Positions 1-48,347 of a stretch of 48,347 nt of DNA are shown here, in pieces; positions within the stretch are counted from its first letter, which is position 1, and the number at the start of each line of letters is the position of its first letter. Under the pieces are notes generated by a model. The model ran no database searches, was not told the origin of the DNA, and saw only the letters and a program-made list of their open reading frames with translations. Made by a program: the position numbers and the translations under genes. The DNA comes from Candidatus Hydrogenedentota bacterium (GTDB lineage: Bacteria; Hydrogenedentota; Hydrogenedentia; Hydrogenedentales; SLHB01): contig CAIYET010000399.1 in assembly GCA_903925285.1 (NCBI GenBank), positions 1 to 48,347 on the forward strand. The letters are read 5' to 3'.

Positions 1-125
1 CCTTCATCCTTCATCCTTCATCCTTCATCCTTCATCCTTCATCCTTCATCCTTCATCCTTCATCCTTCATCCTTCATCCTTCATCCTTCATCCTTCATCC
101 TTCATCCTTCATCCTTCATCCTTCA
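1..125. repeat. CCTTCAT heptanucleotide tandem array
   Basis: Seventeen uninterrupted copies of the 7-base unit CCTTCAT plus a partial eighteenth unit; the array runs off the left edge, so its true length is unknown. Read on the minus strand the unit is ATGAAGG. The stop codon (TGA, complement of 123-125) of the neighbouring permease lies inside the last unit, so the array begins exactly where that gene ends. Short relatives of the same unit occur at 35486-35506 and 42235-42250. The perfection of the copies implies recent expansion by slippage or active maintenance. Confidence 0.97.
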
Positions 126-1115
126 CCCCTTCAACCCCGTCAGCGTGATGCCTTGGATGAAGGTTTTCTGCGTGAGGAAGAAGACAATCACGATGGGGAT
201 CGTGATGACGGTGGACATGGCCATCAGGGGCCCCCACATGCTTTCGTGTTGGCTCTGGAATTGTTCGAGGGCGATAGCGAGCGTGTACTGCCGGTCGTCC
301 TGCAAAAAGACGAGCGGATTGAGGAAGTCGCCCCACTCGAAAAGGAACGTGAACAGCGCGGTCGTGGCGAGCGCGGGCTTCGACAGCGGCAGGATGACGC
401 GCCAGAAAATGCCGAACTCGTTGCACCCGTCGATGCGCGCTGCGGCGCTCAGATCTTGCGGAATGCCTAGAAAGAATTGTCGCAAAAGGAAAATGTAGAA
501 GGGAGCGCCGAAAAACGCCGGGACGATCAACGGCGCGAACGTGCCGACCCAGCCGAGCTTGCTGTATACCGCAAACAGGGGAATCAGCGTGACTTGATAG
601 GGCAGCATCATGGTCGCGAGGACGAGCACGAACGCCACCTCGCGGCCTTTCCACGGAATGCGCGCGAAGCTGTAGGCCACGAGCGAACACGACATCACGA
701 TGCCCAGCATGCAGAACGTGCAGATGAACAGCGTATTGCGCAGGTTCAGAAAGAAATCCATCTTGCGGAACGCGTCGCTGTAGTTCTGCCAATGCAGCCC
801 GATTTTCTGGCGGACGTCGAACTCTTCGGGCCACAGCGCTTGTTGATGTCCCTCGATTTCCACAATGTGCCGTCCCACTTCGTCCCGTCCGATTTCGACG
901 CCGGAGTGGCCGTCGCGCGTAACGAGTGGCCGCCCCTGTTCGTCAACGATGTCCGTCGTCGGAATCCACTGCGGCGGATGGCCGGGCTTCGGAAAAATAC
1001 GGCTCTCGGCCTTGAGCGAGGTCGACAGCATCCACGCGAACGGTGCGATGAACAGGATCGACGCGGTCATCAGGACCAGATGCGCTTTCCAATGGATCTT
1101 GAGTTTTCGAGCCAT
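123..1115 (-). CDS. Carbohydrate ABC transporter permease, MalG type
   Basis: Inner-membrane subunit of a sugar importer. The 330-residue protein has a first membrane helix near residues 10-32, further helices after residue 125, and the cytoplasmic EAA-type coupling loop (AAARIDGCNEFGIFWRVILP) that docks on the ATPase. This is characteristic of the MalG/UgpE branch of binding-protein-dependent permeases. It is longer than the usual 270-280 residues because of an extra soluble stretch of about 55 residues after the first helix (roughly residues 45-100). It starts 9 bases after the stop of the LAB_N gene. No MalF-type partner, binding protein or ATPase is in the window; they may lie beyond the left edge, past the repeat. 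Its stop lies in the heptanucleotide array. Confidence 0.93.
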   Translation of the reverse strand: MARKLKIHWKAHLVLMTASILFIAPFAWMLSTSLKAESRIFPKPGHPPQWIPTTDIVDEQGRPLVTRDGHSGVEIGRDEVGRHIVEIEGHQQALWPEEFDVRQKIGLHWQNYSDAFRKMDFFLNLRNTLFICTFCMLGIVMSCSLVAYSFARIPWKGREVAFVLVLATMMLPYQVTLIPLFAVYSKLGWVGTFAPLIVPAFFGAPFYIFLLRQFFLGIPQDLSAAARIDGCNEFGIFWRVILPLSKPALATTALFTFLFEWGDFLNPLVFLQDDRQYTLAIALEQFQSQHESMWGPLMAMSTVITIPIVIVFFLTQKTFIQGITLTGLKG

Positions 1116-1124
1116 GCGTGACGT

Positions 1125-1817
1125 TTACTCGACTGTGTTTGCCGCCGCTTCCGGATTACCGTAAATAAACCACAAGTTTCGCGCGTAAATGAAAAGGGTC
1201 GCGACCATGCCAATGCAGTTGACCCAGTCGCCGCGTTGCGCGAACGCGGTCGATTGGAGTGTCGCGGCCACGAGACTGAGATACCAAAACGCCGGTGGGA
1301 CGACGCTCTTGCGTTTGAACTCGGTAACGATCCACTGGACCAGAAAACGTGAGAAAAAAAGAGTTTGCCCCACGCCCCAAACGCCGAGCCAGAGCCAGTT
1401 TCGCGCCGCCTGCTCGGGCGCGATCGCCTGGTTGACGTGGTATTCCTTGACCCACGTCCACGCCATGAAACCTGTGGCCACGACGACGATGAGCGCGGCC
1501 ACGGCGTGCGTCGCGAGGTTCAACGTAGCGGTGAGGCGTCCCTTTTCGCGCCAGATATGCACGAGATTACGCGCGTACACGACGATGTTGAAGCACTGGC
1601 CGAACGCCGCGCCGGGACTGCGAATAATAACGCTATAGACGAAAATCATGATCGAGCCGGCGCAACTCATGTACCAGAACGCGATGGGGATGACGCTACG
1701 CTTCTTCAGTTCCGACGCGATCCACTGCACGTAGAAGCGCCCGTAAAAAACAATAGCGCCAACCGTGCCGAATACGAGCCAGAACGTGCCGGGCGCCACG
1801 CTGTGCGCCGCCGCCAT
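1125..1817 (-). CDS. Tandem LAB_N (lipid A biosynthesis N-terminal) domain membrane protein
   Basis: A 230-residue integral membrane protein made of two copies of the same module. Copy 1 (about residues 13-90) has FYGRFYVQWIASELKKRSVIP followed by AFWYMS and VYARNL. Copy 2 (about residues 140-222) has FFSRFLVQWIVTEFKRKSVVP, AFWYLS and IYARNL. These are hallmarks of the LAB_N domain, seen alone or fused ahead of lipid-A-disaccharide synthase in Gram-negative bacteria; its biochemical role is not established. The ATG directly abuts the stop of the upstream glycosyltransferase (TAGATG), so the two are probably translationally coupled and act together on lipid-linked sugars. That role is inference. 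Confidence 0.88.
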   Translation of the reverse strand: MAAAHSVAPGTFWLVFGTVGAIVFYGRFYVQWIASELKKRSVIPIAFWYMSCAGSIMIFVYSVIIRSPGAAFGQCFNIVVYARNLVHIWREKGRLTATLNLATHAVAALIVVVATGFMAWTWVKEYHVNQAIAPEQAARNWLWLGVWGVGQTLFFSRFLVQWIVTEFKRKSVVPPAFWYLSLVAATLQSTAFAQRGDWVNCIGMVATLFIYARNLWFIYGNPEAAANTVE

Positions 1818-2762: not shown

Positions 2763-2802
2763 TACGGACTTTCCAAACACGCTCTTAGACTTGAGGTGTT
2801 CG

Positions 2803-8166: not shown

Positions 8167-8190
8167 GTATTCCCCTTAAGTGCGCGAGGT

Positions 8191-10046: not shown

Positions 10047-10074
10047 AATTTCTAATTCCTAATTTCTAATTCAG
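10047..10074. repeat. TAATTTC/TAATTCC heptanucleotide array
   Basis: Four tandem 7-base units (TAATTTC, TAATTCC, TAATTTC, TAATTCA) between the quinone oxidoreductase gene and the acyl-CoA dehydrogenase gene. The stop codon of the oxidoreductase (complement of 10071-10073) lies in the last unit, so the array follows the gene with no gap. Confidence 0.85.
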
Positions 10075-12044
10075 ATTCGTTGTGCCACGATCTCTGCAAT
10101 ATCCATTACTTCGACGCTTCGCGCGTCGCCCTTCGCGGCGTCGGTCAGCATCGTGATGCAGAACGGGCACGCTGCGGCAATCCGGCCTGTGCCGTTCGCC
10201 GCAAGCTCGTTGAACCGGAGGGCGTTGATCGGTTCGCCGAGATGTTCTTCGAGCCACATCCGCCCGCCGCCCGCGCCGCAGCACAAACCTTTCTCGCGTT
10301 CGCGCGTCAACGGAACGAGCCGCTGTCCGGCGGATTCGAGCACGCGGCGCGGCGCATCGTAGATTTCGTTGTATCGGCCCAGATAGCACGAGTCATGATA
10401 GGCCGCGAGGGGTGGCGGATTCTCGTTTGCATTCAGTTTCAGGGCGCCGGAGTCAATAAGTTCTTGAATGAACGTCGTGTGATGGATGACGTCGTATGAT
10501 GCGCCGAACGCGGGATACTCGTTTTTGAACGTGTTGTAGCAATGTGGGCATGTGACGAGTATACGTTTGAAGGTGTGAGACTTAAACGTTTCAATGATTT
10601 CCTGCGCGGCTGTTTGGTAGAGGTATTCGTTTCCGAGACGCCGCGCGCTCTCGCAGGTGCAACGTTCCGCGTCGCCGAGAATGGCGAAATCGATGCCCGC
10701 CGCCTTGAGAATGCGCACCACCGCTACCGAGATCTTCTTGCAGCGGTCGTCATACGAGCCGCTGCATCCTACCCAGTAGAGGACGTCCGTACTTCCCTTT
10801 TCGGCTAGGATGGGCACATCGAGTCCCGCAGCCCACGCCGTGCGGTCGTTGCGCGCGAGGCCCCACGGGTTGCCAGCGGTCTCCATGTTGCGGAACGCCG
10901 TCCCGGCGGTTTCGGGAAAATCCGATTCCATGAGGACCAAGTGGCGTCTTAGATCGGTCAGTTTGTCGACGTGCTCGATGGCCATGGGACAATGCTCGAT
11001 GCACGCGGCGCATGTCGTGCATGCCCAGATCGCGTCGGGCGCAATCGCTCCGCCGACCAGCGCCGGGGTTTCCTGTTTGCGGAGTAATACTCGTGTGTTT
11101 TCGAGCAGATGATGCTTCAGATCGACGACGAGTTTTTTGGGACTCAGCGGTTTATTGGAAACGTGCGTGGGACAGAACTCTTGGCACCGGCCGCACTCGA
11201 TGCAGGCGTAAAGGTCGAGCGTCTGCTTCCACGTGTAGTCCGCGATGCGCGATACGCCGAAAGACGTGGCGGTTTCGTCTTCGAGATCGAGTTTCGTCAT
11301 TTGCCCGCGCGGGCGGAACCGGCGGAACAGGAGATTGAATGGCCCGGCCACGAGATGGACGTGTTTCGTCGGGATAACGAGCAGCCATACCAGCACAAGA
11401 TGCATCAACCCGTCGCACCACCACACGACGTGCGCGGTTGCGGCGAGCGGTCCATGCTCGAGTTGCGCAAACCCTCGCGCGAGCCATGCCGCTACGAAAT
11501 GGAATTGCGGATTAGGGAGTTCGCCGAGTGCGATTTCGGTGGCCTTCGTCGCGAGGTAGGCGGCCATCGCGCCCGCGATGAATGTGAATACCAGGACCGA
11601 TTCGGGTGAAGGCCGCGTCAGGTTCTCCGGTCGCAAGACGTGACGTCGGAACGCAAGCCCCAGAATTCCGAAGATGATCAAGACTGCGAAGAGGTCCGCC
11701 AAGGCAGCGTAGTACAAGGCTAGCCGCGTCGATCCGAACAGGTCGAAACCCGGCAAGAAGGCGCCCACAAAGTGGTCGATCGTGTTGACGGCAAAAACGA
11801 AGAAGCCCCAAACGACGAGGAAGTGTAGCGCGCCTGCCCACGGCTTGCGAAAGACGCGACGTTGAAGGAGTACGTCCAAGGCGGCGTCGATGACGCGCCT
11901 GCCCAACTCGTTGAGGCGGTCTTCGGGTTCGCGTTTGTCCGCACGAAGCAGGAGTTGCACGAGAACGTACGCACGGTATGCGAAGTAGGCAATCGAGCTT
12001 GCTATGATGACTGCGAACAGGGCTTTTTCGGGAAGCGTCAACAT
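10071..12044 (-). CDS. Membrane ETF:quinone oxidoreductase (EMO-type Fe-S protein)
   Basis: A 657-residue fusion of a NarI-like membrane domain (about residues 5-240, several hydrophobic helices) with a heterodisulfide-reductase-like part. Cysteines 281, 284, 287 and 291 (CIECGRCQEFCP) and 342, 345, 348 and 352 (CTTCAACIEHCP) bind two 4Fe-4S clusters. Two CCG domains follow, with CPHC at 499-502 and GLCCGAGGG at 587-593. This architecture next to etfAB is the bacterial ETF:(mena)quinone oxidoreductase that moves acyl-CoA dehydrogenase electrons into the quinone pool, replacing the mitochondrial-type flavin enzyme. It starts 9 bases after the etfA stop. Confidence 0.92.
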   Translation of the reverse strand: MLTLPEKALFAVIIASSIAYFAYRAYVLVQLLLRADKREPEDRLNELGRRVIDAALDVLLQRRVFRKPWAGALHFLVVWGFFVFAVNTIDHFVGAFLPGFDLFGSTRLALYYAALADLFAVLIIFGILGLAFRRHVLRPENLTRPSPESVLVFTFIAGAMAAYLATKATEIALGELPNPQFHFVAAWLARGFAQLEHGPLAATAHVVWWCDGLMHLVLVWLLVIPTKHVHLVAGPFNLLFRRFRPRGQMTKLDLEDETATSFGVSRIADYTWKQTLDLYACIECGRCQEFCPTHVSNKPLSPKKLVVDLKHHLLENTRVLLRKQETPALVGGAIAPDAIWACTTCAACIEHCPMAIEHVDKLTDLRRHLVLMESDFPETAGTAFRNMETAGNPWGLARNDRTAWAAGLDVPILAEKGSTDVLYWVGCSGSYDDRCKKISVAVVRILKAAGIDFAILGDAERCTCESARRLGNEYLYQTAAQEIIETFKSHTFKRILVTCPHCYNTFKNEYPAFGASYDVIHHTTFIQELIDSGALKLNANENPPPLAAYHDSCYLGRYNEIYDAPRRVLESAGQRLVPLTREREKGLCCGAGGGRMWLEEHLGEPINALRFNELAANGTGRIAAACPFCITMLTDAAKGDARSVEVMDIAEIVAQRI

Positions 12045-13033: not shown

Positions 13034-13108
13034 GAGGCTGTAGGAAGTGAGGCTGTAGGCTGTAGGAAGTGCGGGCCTACAGCCTACAGCCTCACTTCCT
13101 ACAGCCTC
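13034..13108. repeat. Perfect 33-bp inverted repeat built of GGCTGTA heptamers
   Basis: Left arm 13034-13066 and right arm 13076-13108 are exact reverse complements; the 9-base loop is AAGTGCGGG. The arms contain the 7-base unit GGCTGTA and an internal GGAAGTGAGG. The structure fills almost the whole gap between etfB (stop at 13111-13113) and etfA. In RNA it would form a very stable stem inside the operon message, able to affect processing, subunit ratio or termination. No U-tract follows. Confidence 0.95.
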
Positions 13109-29546: not shown

Positions 29547-31241
29547 ATGAACGGCGAACCGAACGAGGCCGGATTCTCCGCCCGCGACGGGCTTCTCCTC
29601 GCGGCGGCGGTCGCGTTGGCCGTCGCCCTTCGCTGCATTCACTTATCGGATCAGTCGGTCTGGTACGACGAGTATATTACCATTCGATTCGCCGACGCTC
29701 ACAGTCTCATCGAATGTCTCCGCGAACAACTCAAGTGGGACTGGCATATGGTGCCCGTGTACCACATCCTCGAATACTTCATGGCGCACCTGTTCGGCGG
29801 CAGTATACTTGCCGTGCGTGGCCTGTCGGTACTGTTTGCCGCAGGCGCGGCGGCGCTCATCTACCTCATCGGACGCCACCTGTTCGGGACGTGGGCCGGG
29901 GCAGTCGCCGCCGCACTTTTTGCGATGTCGCCGTTTCACATCTTCCATGGCCAGGAGATTCGGCCTTATTCGCTGGTCGTGATGCTGGCGATGTTGTCGG
30001 TCTACTCCTTCGTGCGCGCCGTGTCCGGCGATGGACGGCGTTGGTGGGCGCTGCACGTCGCGGCCAACGTTCTATTGATGTGGACGCATTTGCTTGCCGC
30101 GATCATCCTGGCGCCGATGGGCCTGTTTCTGTTGTTGTTTCGTTTTCGGTCATGGCGCCGCAACGCCTTGTGGGGGGCGGTACACGTCGCGTTTCTCGTG
30201 CTGGTCGTGCTGTGGATCCACTCGCTGCAAGGCGGCATGGACAGTCCGAAGGCCACGCCGCCACCCATGCAGGCGCTCTGGCAAGATCTGTTTCATCGAG
30301 ATGCGGTGTACCTGCATTGGATGTTCGGTTCAATGCCCTTGTCCACCACCCCGGCAGAAATCGGCTCGCTTGTCCACAAAATCCTCATCGTCCAGCCGCG
30401 CTACGAGAACGCCTTGACATGGACCTTCGTGGCGGCATGCCTATTCCTGGCAACCGCTTCAGTAGGCTTCAAGTTTCAGCGGCAATCCGAAATCCAAAAT
30501 CCAAAATCTTTCCAATGGACCGTCCTTCTATTTCTTTTGTTCGCGATACCGAGCCTGCTACTTTTCGCGCTGACGTGGGCGACGCGCCTCGAACTGTTCC
30601 AAGTGCGCTTTTCCGTTTACAGTTCGCCTGCGCTGTATCTGATAGCCGGCGGCGCCGTGTCGATGCTGCAAATCCGGCGACGGCGCGTCTCTAATACGGA
30701 TCTCGGATCTCAGATCTCAGATCTCGGATCTCAAATCTCAGATCTCAAATCTCAAATCTCAGATCTCAAATCAAAGCCTTCAGCCTTCAGCCTCTTCCTA
30801 CGCGTGCCCGCTGCCGCCGCGATTGTGGGGCTTATGGGCGTGCAGACTATCCTTGGGGTGGAATTGCCGGTTCGCCACGGATATCTCGCCGCCGCCAAGG
30901 TGCTCCGCGCCGAAAAACGCCCCGATGAACCGCTCGTTGCGCACAGCCTCTATACGCAATGGCTACTCGCGTACAACCTCGGCAAACCGCCCATTCCAAC
31001 CATCGAAACGCGCGGATACGACGGGCTTTGCAACACGACGGACGAACTCGTGGGTTCCGGCAAAGCGTTTTGGGTCGTCATGACGGCCGTACCGCCCCAC
31101 TGCCCATCGCCTCCCGATATGACCGGGCTGGCCGAACACTACGCGGACTACTTAACGCAACATGGCGCTCATTTCGCTTCGCGGCGATTCCTGGGCCAGC
31201 AAAACGTCCACGTGTTCCACGTCGAAACGGTGAAGAAGTAG
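29547..31241 (+). CDS. GT39/ArnT-like membrane glycosyltransferase with in-frame heptanucleotide repeats
   Basis: A 564-residue membrane enzyme of the GT-C class. The first loop after helix 1 has SDQSVWYDEYITIRFADAHS, the acidic motif that binds the polyprenyl-phosphate sugar. About ten helices follow, e.g. GGSILAVRGLSVLFAAGAAA and GAVAAALFAMSPFHIFHGQE (the catalytic-loop region). Between two late helices a hydrophilic insertion consists of repeats of a seven-residue unit SQISDLK/G, encoded by ten tandem 7-base units; a smaller repeat lies 190 bases earlier. The start at 29547 is the first ATG fitting the family. Sugar and acceptor are not predictable. Confidence 0.85.
   Translation: MNGEPNEAGFSARDGLLLAAAVALAVALRCIHLSDQSVWYDEYITIRFADAHSLIECLREQLKWDWHMVPVYHILEYFMAHLFGGSILAVRGLSVLFAAGAAALIYLIGRHLFGTWAGAVAAALFAMSPFHIFHGQEIRPYSLVVMLAMLSVYSFVRAVSGDGRRWWALHVAANVLLMWTHLLAAIILAPMGLFLLLFRFRSWRRNALWGAVHVAFLVLVVLWIHSLQGGMDSPKATPPPMQALWQDLFHRDAVYLHWMFGSMPLSTTPAEIGSLVHKILIVQPRYENALTWTFVAACLFLATASVGFKFQRQSEIQNPKSFQWTVLLFLLFAIPSLLLFALTWATRLELFQVRFSVYSSPALYLIAGGAVSMLQIRRRRVSNTDLGSQISDLGSQISDLKSQISDLKSKPSAFSLFLRVPAAAAIVGLMGVQTILGVELPVRHGYLAAAKVLRAEKRPDEPLVAHSLYTQWLLAYNLGKPPIPTIETRGYDGLCNTTDELVGSGKAFWVVMTAVPPHCPSPPDMTGLAEHYADYLTQHGAHFASRRFLGQQNVHVFHVETVKK
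30484..30508. repeat. AATCCAA heptanucleotide array inside a gene
   Basis: Units AATCCGA, AATCCAA, AATCCAA and a partial fourth, in frame within the GT39-like gene (encoding SEIQNPKS). It is the same period as the larger array 190 bases downstream but a different unit. Confidence 0.7.
30698..30794. repeat. ATCTCAR heptanucleotide array with adjoining CCTTCAG units, inside a gene
   Basis: Ten full 7-base units varying only at the first two positions (GGATCTC, AGATCTC, AAATCTC), then a partial unit, followed at 30776 by GCCTTCA units of another heptamer family. Three heptamers make 21 bases, so the translation repeats every seven residues (SQISDLK). The insertion lies in a loop of a membrane protein, where it can be tolerated. 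Confidence 0.93.
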
Positions 31242-34304: not shown

Positions 34305-35522
34305 ATGGGCATGAGCGCGCCATTGCCGCTAGTATCCGTTGTATTCCCGTGCCTCAATGAGGAAGGCACGATAGGGCGTTGCGTGGACGCCGCGCGCAAG
34401 GCCCTCGATGCGGCGGGCATCGAGGCTGAAATCGTTGTCGCGGACAATCGCTCGACGGATGCTTCGCGCCGGATCGCGGAGGAAGCGGGCGCACGTGTGA
34501 TCGAAGCGTCCGCGCCGGGGTATGGCAGTGCGTTGCGCGCGGGATTGCGCGAGGCACGGGGGCGTTACCTGATTTTCCTTGACGCGGACATGTCATACGA
34601 CTGCGGCGATATCCCGCGCTATGTCGACGCGTTGCGGGAGGGCGTCGAGTTCGTCATGGGGTCGCGTTTCCGCGGAACGATAGATCCTGGTGCAATGCCG
34701 TGGTCGCACCGGCGCTTCGGCACACCGTTGATGACGTTCCTGGCCAACATATTGTTCGGCAGCCACATCACGGACATCAATTGCGGGATGCGCGGCATCG
34801 CGCGCGAGGCCTTCGACCGGCTCGAACTGCGGTCGCAAGGCATGGAATTCGCATCTGAAATGGTGATCAAAGCGACGCGGGCCAAACTGCGTATTTGCGA
34901 AATCCCCATCGCGTTCCATGCGGATCAGCGTGGGCGTCGTCCGCATCTGCGGTCGTTCCGCGACGGATGGCGGCACCTGCAACTCATGCTGCACTTCTGT
35001 CCGATCTGGCTGTTCCTGTTGCCCGGACTGCTTCTTTGCGGGGGTGGTTTTGCGACGATTGCCGCGCCCTTCTTCGCAGGGGATCGTCATTTTGGCTTGT
35101 TGACCTATCTGCTTGCTTTGTTGGGTACGGTCGTCGGCGTGCAGATCTTGTTGCTCGGCTTGAGCGCGCAGGGTCACGTACCGTATTCCAAGTACGCGCC
35201 ATGGGGTGACCGCCCACTGGTACGCACGCTACGGGCGTGGGTGCGCATTGAAAAGGCGTTGGTCATGGGCGCCATGGCCACGGTCATCGGTGCGGGCATG
35301 CTTGGATACGCCGGGTGGCGCAGCGCATGGACGCCCGGCCCATCGGGAGGCGCGCTCATCCAGTTCGATGCCATGGCCGTCCGAATGGCGCTGCTCGGGA
35401 CGGCCGTCTTCGTCAACGGTCTCCAGGTATTCTTCACGTCGCTGGTTATGGGCCTGTTCGGACTGCGGTTACCCGAGGATGAACCAAGGATGAAGGATGA
35501 AAAAGGCCGTGGGATAAAGTAG
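34305..35522 (+). CDS. Membrane-associated family 2 glycosyltransferase
   Basis: A 405-residue enzyme: an N-terminal GT-A domain with SVVFPCLNEEGTIGRCV, VADNRSTDASRRIAEEAGA and the metal motif FLDADMSYDCGD, then GYGSALRAGLREARGRYLIF typical of dolichol-phosphate-glucose-like GT2. After residue 230 come four hydrophobic helices (LFLLPGLLLCGGGFATIAAP; LLTYLLALLGTVVGVQILLL; VMGAMATVIGAGMLGYAGWR; AVFVNGLQVFFTSLVMGLFG). The start at 34305 (MGMSAP) or 34311 fits best. The last residues (EPRMKDEKGRGIK) are encoded by two copies of the ATGAAGG heptamer and a degenerate third, so a repeat has added or replaced the C-terminus. Confidence 0.88.
   Translation: MGMSAPLPLVSVVFPCLNEEGTIGRCVDAARKALDAAGIEAEIVVADNRSTDASRRIAEEAGARVIEASAPGYGSALRAGLREARGRYLIFLDADMSYDCGDIPRYVDALREGVEFVMGSRFRGTIDPGAMPWSHRRFGTPLMTFLANILFGSHITDINCGMRGIAREAFDRLELRSQGMEFASEMVIKATRAKLRICEIPIAFHADQRGRRPHLRSFRDGWRHLQLMLHFCPIWLFLLPGLLLCGGGFATIAAPFFAGDRHFGLLTYLLALLGTVVGVQILLLGLSAQGHVPYSKYAPWGDRPLVRTLRAWVRIEKALVMGAMATVIGAGMLGYAGWRSAWTPGPSGGALIQFDAMAVRMALLGTAVFVNGLQVFFTSLVMGLFGLRLPEDEPRMKDEKGRGIK
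35486..35506. repeat. ATGAAGG heptamer pair at the 3' end of a gene
   Basis: AAGGATG AAGGATG followed by a degenerate unit AAAAAGG, forming the last coding residues of the glycosyltransferase. Same unit as the large array at 1-125. Confidence 0.6.
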
Positions 35523-37001: not shown

Positions 37002-37011
37002 GGAACAATGA

Positions 37012-37035
37012 AGTGACAACGTGACAAGTGAAACG
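37012..37035. repeat. GTGACAA heptamer tract after a stop codon
   Basis: AGTGACAAC GTGACAA GTGAAAC, beginning 10 bases past the stop of the radical SAM gene. Weak, with one unit of eight bases, but of the same period and position relative to a stop as the other heptamer arrays. Confidence 0.4.
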
Positions 37036-37086
37036 TCGCGTTACTCGAAGCGCGCGCCCCGCTAGTCGCGGTTTCTTCACAATTAC

Positions 37087-38640
37087 TCAGGTCTTACTTG
37101 CGGCGTTCCCGCCTTCGATGCTCATTTCGCGCAGCTTTCGCTTGAGCAGTTTGCCTGTTGCCCCTTTAGGCAGTACGGGCAAAACCTCGATGTAGCGGGG
37201 CACCTTGTATCGGGCCATGCGTTCTTCGCAGTATTGACGCAAGTCTTCGGACGTCGTCGTGGCCGCTTTGGTCAAGGACACGTACGCCTTGACCTCTTCG
37301 CCGCGTGCTTCGTCGGGCACGCCGATTACGCAGGCCTCGACGATATCGGGATGTCCATAAAGCGCCTCCTCGATCTCGCGCGGATAAATGTTCATGCCGC
37401 CGCGTATGATGAGATCCTTCTTGCGGTCGACGATGAAGAAGTAACCGTCTTCGTCCATCTTGCCGAGGTCGCCGGTATGGAACCATCCGTCGATGATGAC
37501 CGATTCGGTCGCGCCGGGGCGCTTGTAATAGCCCTTCATGAGATTGTGTCCGCGCAACACGATTTCGCCTACTTCGTCGACACCGCCGAAGGTCCCGTCT
37601 TCGCGCATGATCCGCATTTCGCAGCCCCAGATCGGCGTGCCGATCGAGCCGGGTTTGCTTGGGCGATCAGGCATGTTGAACGAGGCCACTGGACTGGTTT
37701 CGGTCAGCCCGTAGCCCTCGAAGATTTGCAGGCCGAAACGCTCACGGAACCGGCTCAGCACGTCGACCGGCAGCGCCGAACCGCCGGATACGACCATCTT
37801 GAGCGACGAAATGTCGTGCTTGTTTTCGTCGGCATTGAGCATCCAGAAGAACATCGTCGGCACCGCCGCGAGGAACGTTACGCGGTCGCGCTGGATAATT
37901 TCGAGCGTCTTGCCTGTATCGAACACGGGCATCATCGTCAGCGTCGCGCCGGACATCAAACCGACGTTCATCACGCAGGTCTGGCCGAAGGAATGGAAGA
38001 GGGGCAAGACGACGAGGCCCACATCGTCCGGCTTGACCTTGACGATGTAGTCCTTCGCGAAGAAGGCATTGAAGAAGACGTTGAAATGCGTGAGTTCGGC
38101 CCCCTTGGGCGTGCCGGTCGTGCCGGACGTGTACAAGATGACGGCCGTGTCTTCGGGCATGGTCTGCACCATGTCGAAGTGGGCCGACGCCGCGTCGAGA
38201 GCGGGTTCTAGCGCCTCGCCCACGGGTGGTGACGAGGATGCGGGACCGCCCACCAGGATCAGATGGCGGCAGGTCTCGGTTTGCAGGAATGCCTTGCGGG
38301 CTTCTTCCTCGAAGCTGTGCCAAGCTATGAACACGAACGCGTCCGAGTCCTCGATTTGATACTGGATTTCGAGCGCCTTCATCATGCAGTTGATCGGGAC
38401 GACCGTGCCGCCGGCGTTCAGGATGCCGTAGTAGGCGATGGGGAAGTGCGGCGTGTTCGGCAGCATGACGGCAACCTTGTCGCCTTTCTTGACTCCGCGG
38501 TCCCGCAGCACATTGGCCATTTTCTTGACGGCCGCGACAAGTTCCGTGTAACTCAACTTCCACTTGTCGAGAATAAGGGCCGTCTTGTTCGGATACCGCT
38601 CTGCGGATGCATCCAGAAAATACGCCAGATTCAGACTCAT
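37087..38640 (-). CDS. Long-chain acyl-CoA ligase (FadD-like)
   Basis: A 517-residue member of the ANL adenylating superfamily that activates a fatty acid to acyl-adenylate and then acyl-CoA. Core motifs: ILYTSGTTGTPKGAELTH (P-loop), GYGLTETSPVASFN (A5), GWFHTGDLGKMDEDGYFFIV (A7), DRKKDLIIRGGMNIYPREIE (A8), and PKGATGKLLKRKLRE with the catalytic lysine near the C-terminus. AAGGAG is 7 bases before the ATG. It could supply the acyl-CoA dehydrogenase and ETF system encoded at 8221-13890. Confidence 0.95.
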   Translation of the reverse strand: MSLNLAYFLDASAERYPNKTALILDKWKLSYTELVAAVKKMANVLRDRGVKKGDKVAVMLPNTPHFPIAYYGILNAGGTVVPINCMMKALEIQYQIEDSDAFVFIAWHSFEEEARKAFLQTETCRHLILVGGPASSSPPVGEALEPALDAASAHFDMVQTMPEDTAVILYTSGTTGTPKGAELTHFNVFFNAFFAKDYIVKVKPDDVGLVVLPLFHSFGQTCVMNVGLMSGATLTMMPVFDTGKTLEIIQRDRVTFLAAVPTMFFWMLNADENKHDISSLKMVVSGGSALPVDVLSRFRERFGLQIFEGYGLTETSPVASFNMPDRPSKPGSIGTPIWGCEMRIMREDGTFGGVDEVGEIVLRGHNLMKGYYKRPGATESVIIDGWFHTGDLGKMDEDGYFFIVDRKKDLIIRGGMNIYPREIEEALYGHPDIVEACVIGVPDEARGEEVKAYVSLTKAATTTSEDLRQYCEERMARYKVPRYIEVLPVLPKGATGKLLKRKLREMSIEGGNAASKT

Positions 38641-38658
38641 GCGTGCTCCTTCCCATCC

Positions 38659-38726
38659 AGGCTTCAGGCTACAGGCTTCAGGCTTCAGGAAGTGCGATGT
38701 AGCCTGAAGCCTGAAGCCTGAAGCCT
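38659..38726. repeat. GGCTTCA heptamer inverted repeat, loop GGAAGTGCGATGTAG
   Basis: Left arm 38659-38689 and right arm 38703-38726 are made of GGCTTCA and its complement TGAAGCC; the innermost 17 bases pair perfectly. The loop AAGTGCGATGTAG is nearly identical to that of the next element at 38877. Upstream of the acyl-CoA ligase start, in the 303-base gap to the RND pump gene; the spacer 38735-38876 holds no gene. Confidence 0.9.
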
Positions 38727-38876
38727 TTCCCTAGTTAACTTCTGCCGACCATCCAACCATGCGGTTATCCTCGAAGCCCCAGCATACTATTCAAAATCAA
38801 TCGGGAAATCAAGACGTTGGCGTCCGCCATTTGGCAATCCAAGCTTCAGGCCGCACGCCGAAGCCTTGCGCGCGGG

Positions 38877-38935
38877 CCTACAGGCTTCAGGAAATGCGAT
38901 GTAGCCTGAGGCCTGAAGCCTGAAGCCTGAAGCCT
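38877..38935. repeat. GGCTTCA heptamer inverted repeat, second copy
   Basis: Short left arm 38877-38891, loop AAATGCGATGTAG, right arm of four TGAAGCC-type units 38904-38934. The RND pump stop codon follows 8 bases later (complement of 38944-38946), so on the minus strand the element sits directly after that gene. Confidence 0.88.
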
Positions 38936-38943
38936 TTCCCTGT

Positions 38944-42213
<3,270 letters not shown>

Positions 42214-42234
42214 GAGCGGCATCCTGTCGCGCAA

Positions 42235-42351
42235 GGATGAAGGATGAAAGAGGCTTTAGGCTTTAGGCTGTAGGCTTTAGGAAGTGCGTCGATCACGGGC
42301 AATTTATCCTTCTTCTTCATCCTTTAGCCTAATGCCTAATGCCTAATGCCT
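42235..42351. repeat. Compound heptamer repeat between adaptor and pump genes
   Basis: 42235-42250 has two ATGAAGG units; 42251-42281 has four GGCTTTA/GGCTGTA units; 42282-42290 is GAAGTGCGTC, the shared loop motif; and 42321-42351 has CCTTTAG and three CCTAATG units. Left and right arms are imperfect complements, so a branched hairpin in the operon mRNA is likely. The adaptor stop follows 6 bases away. Confidence 0.88.
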
Positions 42352-42357
42352 CTTCTT

Positions 42358-43554
42358 CTATTCGACGCGCATGCCGTCTTGGATACGGTCGAGGGCGCCG
42401 GTTACGATGATTTCGCCGTCGTTCAAGCCCGACAATACTTCGACGCGCGCGCCGTATTGTTTGCCGGTCTTGATGAGGCGCAACCGTGCGATTTGGTCGT
42501 TGCCTACGACGAATACGCCGGTCAACTGTCCGCGTTCGACAACCGCCGCGCTCGGCACGGCAAGTGCCTGCTTTTCGCTTGCGACGTACCGCACGCGCCC
42601 GAATAGTCCCGAATGCAGATTCGGAGCGGCAGGCAAATTGACCTTGACGACAAACGTGTGACTACCGGTGTCGGACGAGGGCACGACCTCGGCCACCGTT
42701 CCCGCGATCGGCTGCTCGCCGAGGGCGTCTATCAGGACGGAAATCGCATCGCCCACGTGGAAAAGACCTACCCGGCCTTCATCGATATTGGCTTCGAGAC
42801 GGTACTGCCGGTTGTCTTCGATCTCGAGCAGGGGCATGTTCGGGGCGGCCAAGTCACCTACTTCGGCGCTCTTGCGCGTGACAACGCCGTCCATGGGACT
42901 GGCGATGCGGGCGTATCCGAACATGACCTTGGCGTTGGCAACCTCCGCCTGGGCCTGCTCGATCCGTGCGGCGGCCTCCGCTTTCTTGGCCTCGAACGAC
43001 TTGAGCATCTCATCGGCCTGGCTTGCTTCGGCCGTTGCGCCCTTCTGTTTCGCATTGGCCTCGTCATACGCCTGGCGGCTGATAGCCTTATTCGTGGCAA
43101 GCCCCTTCAGACGTTCGAGCGTTGCGTTGGCCAAATTCTGAGTGGCTGCTGCAGCGCCCTTAGCCGCTTGTGCACCGCTGAAGCCTTTCTCGACTTCGAG
43201 CAACGCGCTCTGCGCTTCGAGCAACGCGCTCTCGGCCTTCTGGGCCTGGGCGGCCACCTCTCGGTCATCGATATCGATTAGCGGCATGCCCGTCGTCACC
43301 GGAGTCCCCTCGGCCACGTGGACGGCCATGATATGCCCCATGAGCCTGCTTTGAATCGTAGAAGCGGCCTTCGACCGGACCGCGCCAACGGCTTCTTCGG
43401 GTACTTGGACCGTTTGTAGGACAATCTTCTCCGTTGCGGCCTTGACGGTGGCAACCGGCGCTACGTTACCGGAGGTCGGCGTCGTCTTGTGACACCCAAC
43501 CGCCCACACCGTCAACGCGGCCATAAGCATCGCAACCGCCAGACTTCGATTCAC
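42358..43554 (-). CDS. RND efflux periplasmic adaptor lipoprotein
   Basis: A 398-residue membrane-fusion protein linking the pump to an outer channel. The start is the GTG at 43554: GGAGGA lies 7 bases upstream, and an ORF start at a TTG further up includes that ribosome site. The lipoprotein signal ends at WAVGC. Lipoyl/barrel-sandwich halves are split by a long helical hairpin rich in Ala, Lys and Glu (AQKAESALLEAQSALLEVEK...NATLERLKGLATNKAISRQA). ASPMDGVVTRKSAEVGDLAAP and VFVVGNDQIARLRLIKTG are typical later elements. Precedes the pump gene in the same operon. Confidence 0.93.
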   Translation of the reverse strand: MNRSLAVAMLMAALTVWAVGCHKTTPTSGNVAPVATVKAATEKIVLQTVQVPEEAVGAVRSKAASTIQSRLMGHIMAVHVAEGTPVTTGMPLIDIDDREVAAQAQKAESALLEAQSALLEVEKGFSGAQAAKGAAAATQNLANATLERLKGLATNKAISRQAYDEANAKQKGATAEASQADEMLKSFEAKKAEAAARIEQAQAEVANAKVMFGYARIASPMDGVVTRKSAEVGDLAAPNMPLLEIEDNRQYRLEANIDEGRVGLFHVGDAISVLIDALGEQPIAGTVAEVVPSSDTGSHTFVVKVNLPAAPNLHSGLFGRVRYVASEKQALAVPSAAVVERGQLTGVFVVGNDQIARLRLIKTGKQYGARVEVLSGLNDGEIIVTGALDRIQDGMRVE

Positions 43555-43723
43555 CGATTTGTCCTCCAACCGCCATACCCAGTTGCGTTTCCGGTGGCTA
43601 TCTTAAGACAATTCAGAGGGACTTCGCCACATTTTACCCCGCCAAGGTAACGCGCACACGTGCCGGGGAATTCCCGGTGGGCCAATCGTGTTAGAATCGC
43701 TAACTAAGGAGTACGTGGACATT

Positions 43724-45103
43724 ATGGCGGATAGCGGCGCCAAAGATTTTGGATCGAGTCCTTTCTTCGAATTCGTGCAGGAAGATGCTTCGGGAGATAC
43801 GTTCTCGCCGGAGGAGATCTCGGTACTCGATCGTGTCAATCAAAAGATTGCAGCGGGCCAGTCGCTCGACGACGTCATGAACTTCGTGTTCGATGCGACG
43901 CGGGAAATTATCCCGTGCGACCGTTTAGGTCTGGCGTTTGTCGAAGACGACGGCCGCCGCGTCATCGCGCACTGGGCGCGGGCCACTTATGCGCCGCTGT
44001 TGCTCAGGGACGGTTTCGCGCAGGATATCGAGGGCAGTTCGTTGAAAGCCGTCCTCGATACGGGTGAGCCGCGGATCATCGACGATCTCGAACAGTATGC
44101 GCGGGAACATCCGGATAGCATCTCGACACGCGCTATCCTCCAGGAAGGCATTCGTTCGAGCATGACGTGTCCGTTAAGCGTCGAGGATCGCCCGATAGGC
44201 TTCTTGTTCCGCAGTTCGCGGCAACCCAACGCGTACGCGCGCCATCACGTCCGCCTGCATCAAGCGATTGCCGAGCGGATAAGCCAGGCGGTCGAGAAGG
44301 CGTGGCGGATCGAACGCCTGCGCGTGGCCAACCGGGCCTACTTCGAGATCCTCGGTTTCGTCAGCCACGAACTTAAAAGCCCGCTGGCGTCCATCGTGAT
44401 GGATGTTTATGCGCTCAATAACGGGATGTTCGGCCCCCTGTCCGACGCGCAACGCGACAAGCTGCAACGTATGGTGGGCAAGGCGCAGTATCTCTTGGGG
44501 ATGATCGAGGAATACATTGGTCTGTCGTGCATCGAGAGCGATGGATTCGAAGGATCGTTTCGCGCGGGCGTCGATTTTTGCGCCGAGGTGATCGAACCGG
44601 CCCTCGGCATTGTCGACAGTCTCGCGCGCGACCAACTCATGAGGATGGACAGCGAATTCCCCGAAACGTTGGCGTTTGCGGCGTGCGATACGGGGCTGAT
44701 GACCATCGTCATGGTAAACCTGTTGGGCAATGCGATAAAATACGGGACGCGCGAGGGCAAGATACGGATTCGCGCCGGTACGGCCAACGGACGCTTGTCC
44801 GTATCGGTGTGGAACGAAGGTCCCGGCTTCCCTCTGGAAGAGAAGCCGCGTCTTTTCCGCAAGTTCTCGCGATTGCAGACGCCCGAACTGCTCAAACGTA
44901 AGGGTACGGGCGTCGGTTTGTATTCGACATGGCGTATCATTCAGTTACATGGCGGCCGGATTTGGGCCGATTCCGAGCTTGGACAGTGGGCGGAATTCTC
45001 GTTCGAGATTCCGCTTGCGCTCGGTGGAACGGCCGACGCGGAAGCCTTGCGCGCGGCGGAAAGAAAGGATCGGGTGTTCGATGAAGACGACGACCAGTTC
45101 TGA
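43724..45103 (+). CDS. Soluble GAF-domain sensor histidine kinase
   Basis: A 459-residue cytoplasmic kinase with no membrane helix. A GAF-like sensor (about residues 25-190) shows CDRLGLAFVEDDGRRVIAHW and MTCPLSVEDRPIGFLF. The HisKA box has FVSHELKSPLASIV, with phospho-acceptor His215; the ATPase has MVNLLGNAIKYG (N box), VWNEGPGFPLEEK (G1 region) and GTGVGLYSTWRIIQLHGG (G2). The ATG at 43724 or a GTG at 43688 could start it. It overlaps the hydG start by 23 bases, so it is translationally linked to hydrogenase maturation and may report redox or hydrogen state; this role is inference. No response regulator is in the window. Confidence 0.9.
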   Translation: MADSGAKDFGSSPFFEFVQEDASGDTFSPEEISVLDRVNQKIAAGQSLDDVMNFVFDATREIIPCDRLGLAFVEDDGRRVIAHWARATYAPLLLRDGFAQDIEGSSLKAVLDTGEPRIIDDLEQYAREHPDSISTRAILQEGIRSSMTCPLSVEDRPIGFLFRSSRQPNAYARHHVRLHQAIAERISQAVEKAWRIERLRVANRAYFEILGFVSHELKSPLASIVMDVYALNNGMFGPLSDAQRDKLQRMVGKAQYLLGMIEEYIGLSCIESDGFEGSFRAGVDFCAEVIEPALGIVDSLARDQLMRMDSEFPETLAFAACDTGLMTIVMVNLLGNAIKYGTREGKIRIRAGTANGRLSVSVWNEGPGFPLEEKPRLFRKFSRLQTPELLKRKGTGVGLYSTWRIIQLHGGRIWADSELGQWAEFSFEIPLALGGTADAEALRAAERKDRVFDEDDDQF

Positions 45104-46487
45104 GGGAGTTCCCATTCGCGAAGAGGAAATCGACGCCGTATTGGCGGCGGGCGCGACGCGCGACGCGGCGCATGTGCGCGAGGTCCTGGCCAAGGCAAAG
45201 GAGCTGAAGGGCTTGTCCGCGTCCGACGTGGCGGTGTTGATGCCGATCAGCGATCCTGAACTGCTGGGCGAGTTGTTCGCAACGGCTCGCCAAGTCAAGG
45301 AAGAAATCTATGGGCGGCGCCTAGTCTTGTTCGCGCCGCTGTACATCTCGAACCTGTGCGGTAACGAATGCCTGTACTGCGCCTTCCGCGTGCGCAACAA
45401 GGATGTCAAACGCCGCGCCCTGTCACAGGAAGAGATCGCGCAGGAGATCACGGTCCTCGTCGAACAAGGCCATAAACGCGTGCTGCTCGTCGCAGGCGAG
45501 TCGTATCCCCAGGAAGGATTCTCATATGTCCTGCGAAGCATCGAGACGATCTACGCGACGCGTAGCGGCAACGGCGAGATCCGCCGCGTCAATGCCAACG
45601 TCGCGCCGCTCACGCTCGAAGAATTCCGCCAACTCAAGGCGGCCCGGATCGGCACCTATCAGGTCTTCCAGGAAACGTATCACCACGCCACGTATGCGAA
45701 GATGCACCTCGGCGGCAAGAAAATGGATTACAACTGGCGCGTGACCGCCATGGACCGCGCCATGGAGGCCGGCATCGACGATGTAGGCATCGGCGTCCTG
45801 TTTGGGCTGGCCGATTGGCGATTCGAGGTTCTCGCGATGATGCAGCACATCGCCCATCTCGAAGAGCGGTTCGGCGTCGGACCGCACACGATCAGCGTGC
45901 CACGTCTCGAACCCGCGACCGGTTCCAATATCGCCGCGCAGCCGCCGCACGCGGTTGGCGACCTCGACTTCCGCAAGATCGTCGCGATCCTCCGGCTCGC
46001 GGTACCATACACGGGGATCATCATGAGCACGCGAGAGACCGCGAACATCCGGCGTGAAACCTTCGCGCTGGGCGTGTCGCAGATCTCGGCAGGCAGCCGC
46101 ACGAACCCCGGCGGCTATGTCGAGGGCGACCCCGTGGCCGTGAGCGAACAGTTCTCGCTCGGCGACCACCGTGGGCTGGACGAAGTCGTGCGCGACGTAG
46201 CCTCGCTCGGCTATATCCCGTCGTTCTGTACCGCCTGCTACCGGCTCGGACGGACGGGGCATGATTTCATGGACATGGCCAAGCCGGGGGCCATCAAGGA
46301 CCATTGCGATCCGAATGCCCTGTCGACGTTTCTCGAATACTTGACGGACTACGCCTCGCCGGAGACCCAAGCGGCGGGCGAAAAGCTGATCGCCGATACG
46401 CTCGAACGCATGAACGATGGCGTGCGCCGCATTTCGCAGAACCTCTTGGCCAAGGTCCGCGAAGGCCAGCACGACGTGCTCTGCTGA
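45081..46487 (+). CDS. hydG: [FeFe]-hydrogenase maturase HydG (tyrosine lyase)
   Basis: A 468-residue radical SAM enzyme that cleaves tyrosine to p-cresol and makes the CO and CN ligands of the hydrogenase H-cluster. Cysteines 93, 97 and 100 (NLCGNECLYC) bind the SAM cluster. A second cluster sits on the HydG-specific C-terminal CTAC (383, 386) with Cys409 after 22 residues, giving CX2CX22C, followed by NALSTFLEYLTDYA. Length and both clusters are complete, so it is predicted active. Start ATG 45081 is within the kinase gene end. It implies an [FeFe] hydrogenase elsewhere; hydE and hydF are not in the window. Confidence 0.96.
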   Translation: MKTTTSSEGVPIREEEIDAVLAAGATRDAAHVREVLAKAKELKGLSASDVAVLMPISDPELLGELFATARQVKEEIYGRRLVLFAPLYISNLCGNECLYCAFRVRNKDVKRRALSQEEIAQEITVLVEQGHKRVLLVAGESYPQEGFSYVLRSIETIYATRSGNGEIRRVNANVAPLTLEEFRQLKAARIGTYQVFQETYHHATYAKMHLGGKKMDYNWRVTAMDRAMEAGIDDVGIGVLFGLADWRFEVLAMMQHIAHLEERFGVGPHTISVPRLEPATGSNIAAQPPHAVGDLDFRKIVAILRLAVPYTGIIMSTRETANIRRETFALGVSQISAGSRTNPGGYVEGDPVAVSEQFSLGDHRGLDEVVRDVASLGYIPSFCTACYRLGRTGHDFMDMAKPGAIKDHCDPNALSTFLEYLTDYASPETQAAGEKLIADTLERMNDGVRRISQNLLAKVREGQHDVLC

Positions 46488-46495
46488 AAAGGAAT

Positions 46496-46550
46496 TAGGC
46501 TTTAGGCTGTAGGCTTTAGGCTGTAGGCACTGCCTACAGCCTAAAGCCTA
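46496..46550. repeat. GGCTTTA/GGCTGTA heptamer hairpin after hydG
   Basis: Left arm 46510-46528 and right arm 46532-46550 form a perfect 19-base stem with loop ACT; two further GGCTTTA/GGCTGTA units precede. It starts 8 bases past the hydG stop codon. A hairpin in this place could stabilise the 3' end of hydG mRNA or cause partial termination before the regulator gene. Confidence 0.93.
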
Positions 46551-46553
46551 GTA

Positions 46554-46628
46554 GGAATTGTGAATTATGAATGTGGAGTGGCAGACGACTTTCGCTCATG
46601 TCCATTCCTAATTACTAATTACTAATTA
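46554..46628. repeat. GAATTRT and CTAATTA heptamer arrays
   Basis: GAATTGT GAATTAT GAATGTG at 46555-46575 and CTAATTA-type units at 46608-46628 (CATTCCTAATTACTAATTAC) flank a 32-base unique stretch; the two arrays are partly complementary. They lie in the gap between hydG and the TM1266-type regulator gene. Confidence 0.75.
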
Positions 46629-46652
46629 ACCGGAACCGAAGGGAAACGAACC

Positions 46653-46907
46653 ATGGACAAACATATCATTCTCGGCATTCACGTCACGGACCGGCTGCGG
46701 AAAGTCGAAGAGGTGCAGCGACTCTTCTCGCAATACGGCTGCAACATCAAGACGCGCCTGGGCCTGCACGAGGTGGCAAACGTCTGCTCGCCCAACGGGC
46801 TGGTCCTGCTCGAAATGTACGGCGATGAAGCCGTGTGTCTCGAACTGGAAGAGAAACTCGAAGCCATCGAAGGTATCGAAGTCCAGAAGATGATCTTCGA
46901 GCACTGA
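46653..46907 (+). CDS. Iron-only hydrogenase system regulator, TM1266 family
   Basis: An 84-residue ACT-like protein. MDKHIILGIHVTDRLRKVEE, then SQYGCNIKTRLGLHEV and SPNGLVLLEMYG match the TM1266/iron-only hydrogenase regulator family, which is encoded next to hydE/hydF/hydG genes; its exact ligand is unknown. AAGGGA precedes the ATG. It lies between hydG and the ammonia-lyase, with the lyase starting 8 bases after its stop. Confidence 0.9.
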   Translation: MDKHIILGIHVTDRLRKVEEVQRLFSQYGCNIKTRLGLHEVANVCSPNGLVLLEMYGDEAVCLELEEKLEAIEGIEVQKMIFEH

Positions 46908-46915
46908 AGGAATCG

Positions 46916-48331
46916 ATGGATCCGGTGCACCGAACAGAGCGTGATTTGCTCGGCGAGAAAGCCGTTCCGGCGGACGCATTTTACGGCGTCCATACGGCAC
47001 GCGCGATCGAGAACTTTCCGTTGGCTGGGTGTCCGGCGCATCCCGCGCTGGTGGCGGCCTACGGCGACGTGAAGCTCGCGTGCGCGCTGACGAACCAGGC
47101 CATGGGCGTCTGGGCGGACGACGTTGCGAAGGCGGAGGCGATCATCCGCGCATGCCGTGAGATGGCAGCGGGCGATTTGACGCGACACGTCGTCGTCGAT
47201 GCGCTGCAAGGCGGCGCGGGCACGAGCCTCAATATGAACGTCAACGAGGTCGTCGCAAACCGTGCGCTCGAAATCCTCTGCGAACCACGCGGCGCGTACC
47301 ATCGCGTCTCGCCGCTCGATGACGTCAACCGCCATCAATCCACGAACGACACGTATCCGACCGCGTTGCGCCTGGCGGCGATCCGGTTGCTGCACGAACT
47401 CGAAGCGCGCGTCCTCGGATTGCAGGAGGCGTTTCAGGCCAACGAGAAGGCGTTTGCGCACGTCGTCAAAGTCGGGCGCACGGAGTTTCAAGATGCCGTG
47501 CTCACCACGCTCGGACGCGAGATGGGTGCGTACGCCGAGGCGTTCAATCGCGACCGCTGGCGCATCTACAAATGCGAGGAACGCCTACGCGTCGTCAACC
47601 TCGGCGGGACGGCGATCGGTACGGGACTGGCCGCGCCGCGGACGTACATTTTTCGCGTCGTGGAATCGTTGCGCGAGATAACGGGCCTCGGTTTCGCGCG
47701 CGCCGAGAACCTCGTCGACGCGACGCAGAACGCGGATGTATTCGTCGAGGTCTCCGGCATACTCAAGGCCTGCGCGACGTCGCTCTTCAAGGTCTGCTCG
47801 GACTTGCGGCTGTTGTCGTCGGGACCGGATGCCGGGTTCGGCGAAATCCGCCTGCCGGAACGCCAGGCCGGATCGTCCATCATGCCCGGCAAGGTCAACC
47901 CGGTCATCCCGGAAGCAGTCAGCCAGGCGGCGATGCTCGTTATGGGCCACGACGCGACGCTTGCGATGGCATGCGCATCCGGCAGTCTCGAACTCAACGC
48001 GTTCATGCCGCTCGTCGCGATGTGCCTGCTCGATAGTTGCGAACTGCTCGCGCGGTCGTGCGAGATCCTCCGCACGCATTGCGTGGAAGGCATCGAGGCC
48101 AACGAGGCGCGTTGCCGCGCACATGTCGAAGGTTCGACGGCAATCGCGACCGCCCTGTTGCCCGCGCTCGGATACGAAGGCGCGTGCAGCGCGGTACAGG
48201 AGGCCCGTGCAACCGGCAAGACGATCCGCGAAATCGTCGTCGGCAGCGGACGCCTGTGCGCAAAAGCATTCGACGAACTCGTCACGCCCGAAGCCGTCTG
48301 CCGTCTTGGCACGCAAGAAGTGAGGCTTTAG
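46916..48331 (+). CDS. aspA: Aspartate ammonia-lyase
   Basis: A 471-residue enzyme that removes ammonia from aspartate to give fumarate. The start is the ATG at 46916 (AAGGA 5 bases upstream), matching MDPVHRTERDLLGEKAVPAD. The family signature GSSIMPGKVNPVIPE begins at residue 319 with the catalytic-loop serines; VNRHQSTNDTYPTALR and VGRTEFQDAVLTTLGREMG are substrate-site motifs, and NMNVNEVVANRALEI is the helix next to the active site. Aspartate ammonia-lyase is often placed with hydEFG in anaerobes, in keeping with the neighbours here. The last codons and the stop (TAG at 48329-48331) are formed by a GGCTTTA heptamer array. Confidence 0.95.
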   Translation: MDPVHRTERDLLGEKAVPADAFYGVHTARAIENFPLAGCPAHPALVAAYGDVKLACALTNQAMGVWADDVAKAEAIIRACREMAAGDLTRHVVVDALQGGAGTSLNMNVNEVVANRALEILCEPRGAYHRVSPLDDVNRHQSTNDTYPTALRLAAIRLLHELEARVLGLQEAFQANEKAFAHVVKVGRTEFQDAVLTTLGREMGAYAEAFNRDRWRIYKCEERLRVVNLGGTAIGTGLAAPRTYIFRVVESLREITGLGFARAENLVDATQNADVFVEVSGILKACATSLFKVCSDLRLLSSGPDAGFGEIRLPERQAGSSIMPGKVNPVIPEAVSQAAMLVMGHDATLAMACASGSLELNAFMPLVAMCLLDSCELLARSCEILRTHCVEGIEANEARCRAHVEGSTAIATALLPALGYEGACSAVQEARATGKTIREIVVGSGRLCAKAFDELVTPEAVCRLGTQEVRL

Positions 48332-48347
48332 GCTTTAGGCTTTAGGC
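48316..48347. repeat. GGCTTTA heptamer array overlapping the aspA stop
   Basis: GAAGTGAGG followed by GGCTTTA units to the right edge of the window (at least three). The stop codon of the lyase is the TAG at the first CTTTAG. The leading GAAGTGAGG matches part of the inverted repeat between etfB and etfA, so the array is a family member; its right end is cut off. Confidence 0.9.

Follow-up and report, generated by a model that had tools for sequence, protein, structure and literature searches.

Why should nearly all tandem repeats of a bacterial genome have a unit of seven bases, and why should they gather at the 3' ends of genes? The question is raised by a 48,347-nucleotide contig (CAIYET010000399.1, here C399 or 'the window') of a Candidatus Hydrogenedentota bacterium, for which the original prediction listed heptanucleotide (heptad) arrays of differing unit sequence in at least ten places; every named array is present, with coordinates only a few bases off. 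Our analysis indicates that at least half of the heptad clusters of this genome are mirror-image (hairpin) elements, and that its simple repeats are largely small dispersed DNA elements. On balance we favour the view that a substantial share of the arrays form the arms of small inverted-repeat elements dispersed in the genome. These would be non-autonomous and similar to miniature inverted-repeat transposable elements (MITEs) or foldback elements, with arms prone to slippage, and would be kept where they are harmless.

The source genome of the window is fragmented (8.28 Mb in 1133 contigs). We sampled 733 kb of it, part picked for GGCTTTA content and part by contig number alone, and added genome-wide counts of exact patterns; period and density figures come from the contigs picked by number only, placement and hairpin figures from all 733 kb. 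A scan for exact arrays of at least 19 bp with periods of 2 to 30 returned 33 of period seven and 0 to 4 of every other period, barring 14, 21 and 28; shuffled sequence contained no period-seven arrays. Chance thus cannot fix the period, as had been predicted, and far from being equally common in these samples, other periods are almost absent once multiples of seven are set aside, period-seven arrays being nearly the sole tandem repeats of the genome. Clusters occur at about 14 per 100 kb, which extrapolates to roughly 1,170 genome-wide; nine of 54 unselected contig ends lie inside heptad arrays, as do both termini of the window. The units form a restricted set of at least 15 (AGGCTTT, AGGCTGT, AAGGATG, CAGGCTT, AGGAGTT and others) in which GGG-type units are scarce, comprising the AAACCCC/GGGGTTT family and a few minor units; most units have no GGG and so lack the runs of at least three G that characterize GGGNATC-type quadruplex repeats.

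Ordinary heptanucleotide microsatellites are a possible but doubtful explanation of these arrays. Slippage would favour seven-base steps, and arrays would arise locally and be tolerated at gene ends. Tandem seven-base units do exceed other periods here, and period seven was dominant in three sampled genomes from two lineages; a microsatellite should, however, be a stand-alone direct array without unique sequence, and here roughly half of the clusters are inverted pairs, and cores present in 26 to 27 copies occur in two families.

The inversion is most apparent at short range. Arrays of the same unit within 150 bp of each other formed 47 inverted and 7 direct pairs, and the inverted pairs had a fixed polarity, with the G-rich strand first in 42, five neutral and none C-first; at 500 to 3000 bp the two orientations were about equal (11 inverted, 12 direct). 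Among the 109 clusters away from contig ends, 56 reached our hairpin threshold (a score of at least 16, the 95th percentile of random segments being 10.5). Such clusters have inverted arms of short tandem repeats, as Foldback elements do. Microsatellites leave unexplained both the excess of inverted over direct close pairs and the G-first polarity, as well as the presence of one unit at hundreds of sites.

The sequences enclosed by the arms are more informative still. The core GGATGAAAAAGAACACAGCCTCGTTCC has 27 genomic copies at no more than three mismatches, and GGCTTCAGGAAGTGCGATGTAGCCTGAAGCC, from the core of the GGCTTCA elements, has 26 copies in the genome and none in 67 other genomes of the phylum; the reversed sequence, our control in core copy searches, gave 0 for each. 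The AAGGATG consensus element is about 115 bp long and reads (AAGGATG)4 AAAAAGAACACAGCCTCGTTCCGTCCGTAAGACTCTTCGATTGCGCACCCGGCATTT (CATCCTT)4, with variable copy number and occasional inserts, while GGCTTTA hairpins have common short cores, e.g. GGCACTGCC and GGCTTCCTTCC. Given that non-repeat cores are common to many unrelated sites, we conclude that copying occurred between sites rather than by independent slippage at each; microsatellites offer no account of conserved non-repeat cores at dozens of sites. The elements are short and non-coding, with terminal inverted repeats and many dispersed copies, as MITEs are. The prediction of one family whose unit changes at constant period therefore stands as to the several units and the period, and is better recast as several families of inverted-repeat elements, some of them with conserved cores.

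The two arms of an element also resemble each other in detail. Units counted from the loop agreed at 67 of 91 positions, compared with 43% after shuffling, although this test is biased in favour of our reading by hairpins having been chosen for pairing; with no hairpin selection the innermost units agreed in 47 of 77 cases versus 30 expected (some overlapping matches being counted twice). GGCTGTA units tend to be close to the loop, with GGCTTTA units farther from it. In the hairpin at 13034-13108 a non-heptad interruption in one arm is exactly reproduced in the other; in two AAGGATG copies (L262 and L279) a portion of the usually asymmetric core is mirrored into the far arm; and contig C332 carries a GGAAGTGCGATGTAGCC copy with GGCTTTA/TAAAGCC arms in place of GGCTTCA. 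Intrastrand template switching would leave just such a mirrored interruption, mirrored core and arm swap. Elements of unlike unit are nested at L049, L074 and L275.

The original prediction had taken in single arms only, and two AAGGATG pairs were overlooked. The arrays and elements of the window are as follows (those without a strand being unstranded).

1..125, minus strand: (CCTTCAT)18, an ATGAAGG array on the minus strand, which supplies the stop of a permease gene (123-1115; distance 0); judging by complete copies, it is probably a single arm of an AAGGATG element truncated where the contig ends.
10046..10072: TAATTTC/TAATTCC array that overlaps the stop of minus-strand gene 10071-12044 (distance 0).
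13034..13108: GGCTGTA inverted repeat, perfect over 33 bp with a 9-nt loop, 3 bp from a stop, between two electron transfer flavoprotein (ETF) subunit genes (13111-13890 and 12054-13019, minus strand); predicted RNA fold -68.9 kcal/mol, z -14.
30482..30510, plus strand: AATCCAA array, in frame and read through inside a PMT_2-type gene (29547-31241).
30697..30795, plus strand: GATCTCA/AATCTCA array followed by AGCCTTC units, in frame in the same PMT_2-type gene, with the sense strand stop-free.
35486..35501, plus strand: AAGGATG pair near the 3' end of a glycosyltransferase gene (34305-35522); as in AAGGATG elements, AAAAAG comes next.
38659..38726: hairpin element of GGCTTCA units whose conserved core is GGAAGTGCGATGTAGCC, lying 18 bp ahead of a start; fold -49.5 kcal/mol, z -9.
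38876..38937: second GGCTTCA element, core GGAAATGCGATGTAGCC, its array at 38883-38937 ending 7 bp from the stop of an ACR_tran gene (38944-42222, minus strand).
42233..42248, plus strand: AAGGATG pair adjoining a GGCTTTA element, without a long complementary partner.
42248..42354: GGCTTTA/GGCTGTA arm, 37-nt loop and CCTAATG arm forming an imperfect hairpin (fold z -5.9) 4 bp away from the stop of minus-strand gene 42358-43530.
46496..46550, plus strand: GGCTTTA/GGCTGTA hairpin that includes a 20-bp perfect palindrome and has GGCACTGCC as its core, 9 bp past the stop of a radical SAM/BATS gene (45081-46487); fold z -5.2.
46555..46630, plus strand: imperfect hairpin of a GAATTATG-like arm and a CTAATTA arm, ending 22 bp ahead of the start at 46653; fold z -2.9.
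48323..48347, plus strand: GGCTTTA arm supplying the TAG stop of gene 46916-48331 (distance 0), its partner lying beyond the contig end.

The PMT_2-type gene thus reads through two unlike heptad arrays (30482-30795), which adds a repetitive peptide to its product.

Other dispersed sequences were met alongside these families. A REP-like (repetitive extragenic palindrome) sequence, CGCCGCGCGCAAGGCTTCCGCGCCGG, occurs at window position 45034 (minus strand), L041:15362, L031:10666 and elsewhere, and also inside several AAGGATG cores. A separate element, about 83 bp long with CGACCCTGGAAGGGTCG...CGACCCTTCCAGGGTCG at its ends and an interior that is similar between copies, has at least four sampled copies (L038:17325-17407, L041:29-111, L049:184-266 and L062:3138-3220). 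Inverted repeats with apparent nine-base units (GTGGACnnn) and a core containing GCGCAAGGCTTCCGCGCCGG lie at L034:15301-15428, L044:13586-13713 and L047:18672-18787, and are a possible period-nine counterpart of the heptad elements. At L037:1758-2338, inverted AATTATG arms surround 527 bp in which one gene is predicted (1827-2195), perhaps forming a larger composite element, and a 97-bp perfect inverted repeat that includes non-repeat flanks (L048:4870-5067, at a contig end) is probably an assembly artefact. The right half of the AAGGATG core was considered as a separate element end and rejected, as five of its six matches were on contigs known for the left half.

Placement was measured against stops and starts called by a gene caller trained on the source genome, with clusters put at random in intergenic DNA (200 trials) as the null. 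Fifty-three of 126 clusters lay within 10 bp of a stop codon, by comparison with 22±4 expected and a maximum of 34 in any trial, an excess of about eight standard deviations; within 10 bp of a start there were 8 of 126 against 25±4. In 31 cases the predicted stop was inside the array. Clustering at stops in the window had been predicted correctly, with the count of arrays 0-10 bases from a stop being seven and not eight, and the samples show a strong excess at 3' ends in two unrelated genomes. Arrays deep within genes were free of stops in every sense frame in 12 of 12 cases, compared with 21% per strand for intergenic arrays, a finding that microsatellites would also accommodate; as the intragenic arrays are all sense-stop-free, selection accounts for at least part of the 3'-end bias. 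In codirectional spacers that retain at least 60 bp once elements are subtracted, clusters are concentrated toward the stop (Kolmogorov-Smirnov p = 0.0006), and this may need more than selection, e.g. target preference or promoter avoidance.

Comparison with relatives showed how unevenly the repeats are distributed. Counts of GGCTTTAGGCTTTA were 468 in the source genome, 91 in G036 and 10 in G035 (another family of the same order), and 0 in the remaining genomes of the phylum that were searched. At one gene end in this second genus, G036 has about 45 AGTTGAC-type units, G038 about 5 that are degenerate, G037 about 3 and G035 none, each directly behind a stop codon, a series across four species that fits slippage and decay as microsatellites would have it. 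A second site has a 240-bp array in G036 that G035 and G038 lack, and a neighbouring terminator-like hairpin is found in all three. Orthologous sites in the genus of G036 therefore differ visibly in the presence and length of their arrays, which are direct and not of foldback type. GGCTTTA and GTTGACA-type arrays flank a palindrome with shared parts (GGGCACGGTCAA...) at two G036 loci (L098:16913-17262 and L091:9589-9858), a composite arrangement different from the foldback elements.

The terminator-like hairpin beside the G036 array bears on whether the hairpins are functional RNAs at mRNA ends or between cistrons, held by selection as terminators or as REP-like protection against exonucleases. 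Very stable folds, complementary arms, and sites at gene ends and within apparent operons, such as that between the two ETF genes, would suit such a role. However, sense-strand G-U mismatches (9) were not in excess of A-C mismatches (12), in what is a small sample; the elements in window positions 37000-47000 gave zero terminator-like matches (in a scan limited to loops of 3-8 nt), lacking the GC-rich stem followed by a T run of an intrinsic terminator; and there was no Rfam match in the window. In G036 the array adjoins a separate terminator-like hairpin that persists where the array is absent, and the repeats are missing from sister genomes. We consider selected RNA function quite unlikely, and less likely than the foldback-element reading, although the hairpins could still affect mRNA decay.

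Under the foldback-element reading, each element has an arm of G-rich heptads, a core ranging from a few to about 60 bp and a complementary arm, and it would spread as non-autonomous, MITE-like mobile DNA, with tandem units composing its terminal repeats as they do in eukaryotic Foldback elements. Replication slippage would let the arms grow and shrink in seven-nucleotide steps, with their complementarity upheld when a self-folded strand copies one arm onto the other. Insertion would be widespread and survival restricted to places where it is harmless: most units have stops in every frame of one strand or of both, so that copies would survive at or just behind stop codons; between operon genes they would survive short of the next ribosome site; and inside genes only if the sense strand is stop-free. 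Once transcribed, a copy would fold into a highly stable hairpin and might thereby influence mRNA decay. The pattern can be explained without any dedicated function.

The repeats extend well beyond this phylum. In a scan of a genome collection, with the window's own records excluded, at least four tandem GGCTTTA units occurred, among the matches listed, in Cyanobacteria (Chamaesiphon), Bacteroidota, Patescibacteria, Planctomycetes, Calditrichota, Acidobacteria and more; in 20 genomes selected for the repeat, two-unit counts ranged from 3 to 328 and the reversed control was 0 in 19. Three viral contigs of IMG/VR (L234, L235 and L236) also contain at least three tandem GGCTTTA units. Chitinophagaceae bacterium DXS (CP128386.1), a complete Bacteroidota chromosome, likewise has period-seven dominance and 3'-end placement: in a 400-kb sample taken partly at known GGCTTTA sites, 37 of 109 clusters were within 10 bp of a stop (14±3 expected) and 2 were near starts (14±3 expected). 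Period and placement are general, and the foldback form is strongest in the source genome and scattered elsewhere, including Xanthomonas. An undescribed process shared by many phyla, which would write seven-nucleotide units from a restricted lexicon (GGCTTTA foremost) at gene 3' ends, be spread by a transferred enzyme or templating RNA, and here have evolved into self-copying foldback elements, is an unlikely explanation of this distribution. Alternatively, the repeats could serve a DNA- or RNA-binding protein as binding sites in seven-nucleotide steps and have been carried along as that protein spread between lineages, an idea raised for TAACTGA repeats (MacGregor 2015, PMC4679880). The constant period and restricted units would agree with this, but the many unrelated units within one genome, the lack of a single position or orientation relative to genes and the scattered presence even inside one genus make it very improbable.

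Returning to the foldback elements, several observations weigh against them as the explanation. About half of the clusters fall below the hairpin threshold; it is copy number alone that points to transposition; no target-site duplication was evident by eye in the flanks of aligned AAGGATG copies; and no partner transposase was found. Y1/RAYT (REP-associated tyrosine) transposases are probably not the driver, as Y1 counts do not track the heptads, with four genes in the source genome and up to 18 in relatives without GGCTTTA arrays. Close pairs in CP128386.1 are mostly direct, and as genomes with direct close pairs share the period and the placement, foldback elements are not the whole cause of heptads. 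An autonomous parent flanked by heptad arms was also sought; none with heptad ends was recognised among the longer inverted pairs in the 733 kb, the few long-range pairs holding nothing or ordinary-looking gene calls (judged without a domain search). Loss of the palindrome nuclease SbcCD as a permissive cause was likewise set aside, since every genome of the phylum falls short of the SbcD cut-off and the test is non-discriminating.

Among known systems, MITEs and the REP/REPIN sequences associated with RAYT share with our elements the form of short, dispersed, non-coding intergenic inverted repeats, and differ in that here the terminal repeats are variable heptad arrays and neither target duplication nor partner transposase was found. 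Eukaryotic Foldback (FB) transposons have inverted terminal repeats of short tandem repeats around a core; the likeness is one of analogy, as the elements described here are bacterial, far smaller, built of seven-nucleotide units and only presumed to be mobile. Cyanobacterial short tandemly repeated repetitive (STRR) heptamers are seven-base tandem units dispersed between genes, and are thus similar in period and intergenic location but different in their units.

Closest are the GGGNATC/GGGGA(C/T)T repeats, of which Rehm et al. (2015, PMC4692102) report GGGNATC-type heptads within 50 bp of or overlapping stops in Xanthomonas and Nostoc; the prediction that stop-codon placement is new is therefore mistaken. 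According to the same authors, those repeats are mostly intergenic, form many inverted pairs (70-75 per Xanthomonas genome), are under-represented between divergent genes and vary in length at orthologous sites, all in common with ours. They differ in that one unit type was studied per genome and read as G-quadruplex repeats, by comparison with at least 15 units here, mostly not of quadruplex type; conserved non-repeat cores, nesting and mirrored arms, present here, are not described in the sections consulted. TAACTGA repeats (MacGregor 2015, PMC4679880) are heptad arrays scattered across phyla (Beggiatoaceae, Cyanobacteria, Bacteroidetes) and found alongside further heptads in Microcystis and Gramella, among others, but are mostly direct and just upstream of starts in the main genome studied, unlike the largely inverted arrays at stops described here. 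Mrazek et al. (2007), as cited in that article, found heptanucleotides to be the commonest class in most genomes rich in long-unit repeats and suggested an explanation from polymerase contact. With stop placement and inverted pairs already known in Xanthomonas, the elements of the source genome are a richer variant of known heptads, set apart by the many units, conserved cores, nesting and mirrored arms.

What appeared to be a microsatellite oddity thus becomes a set of testable element families. Their arrays fall at assembly breaks and risk being misread as coding sequence. The recurrence of period seven, stop placement and GGCTTTA across unrelated phyla sharpens the question of why bacterial repeats favour seven bases.

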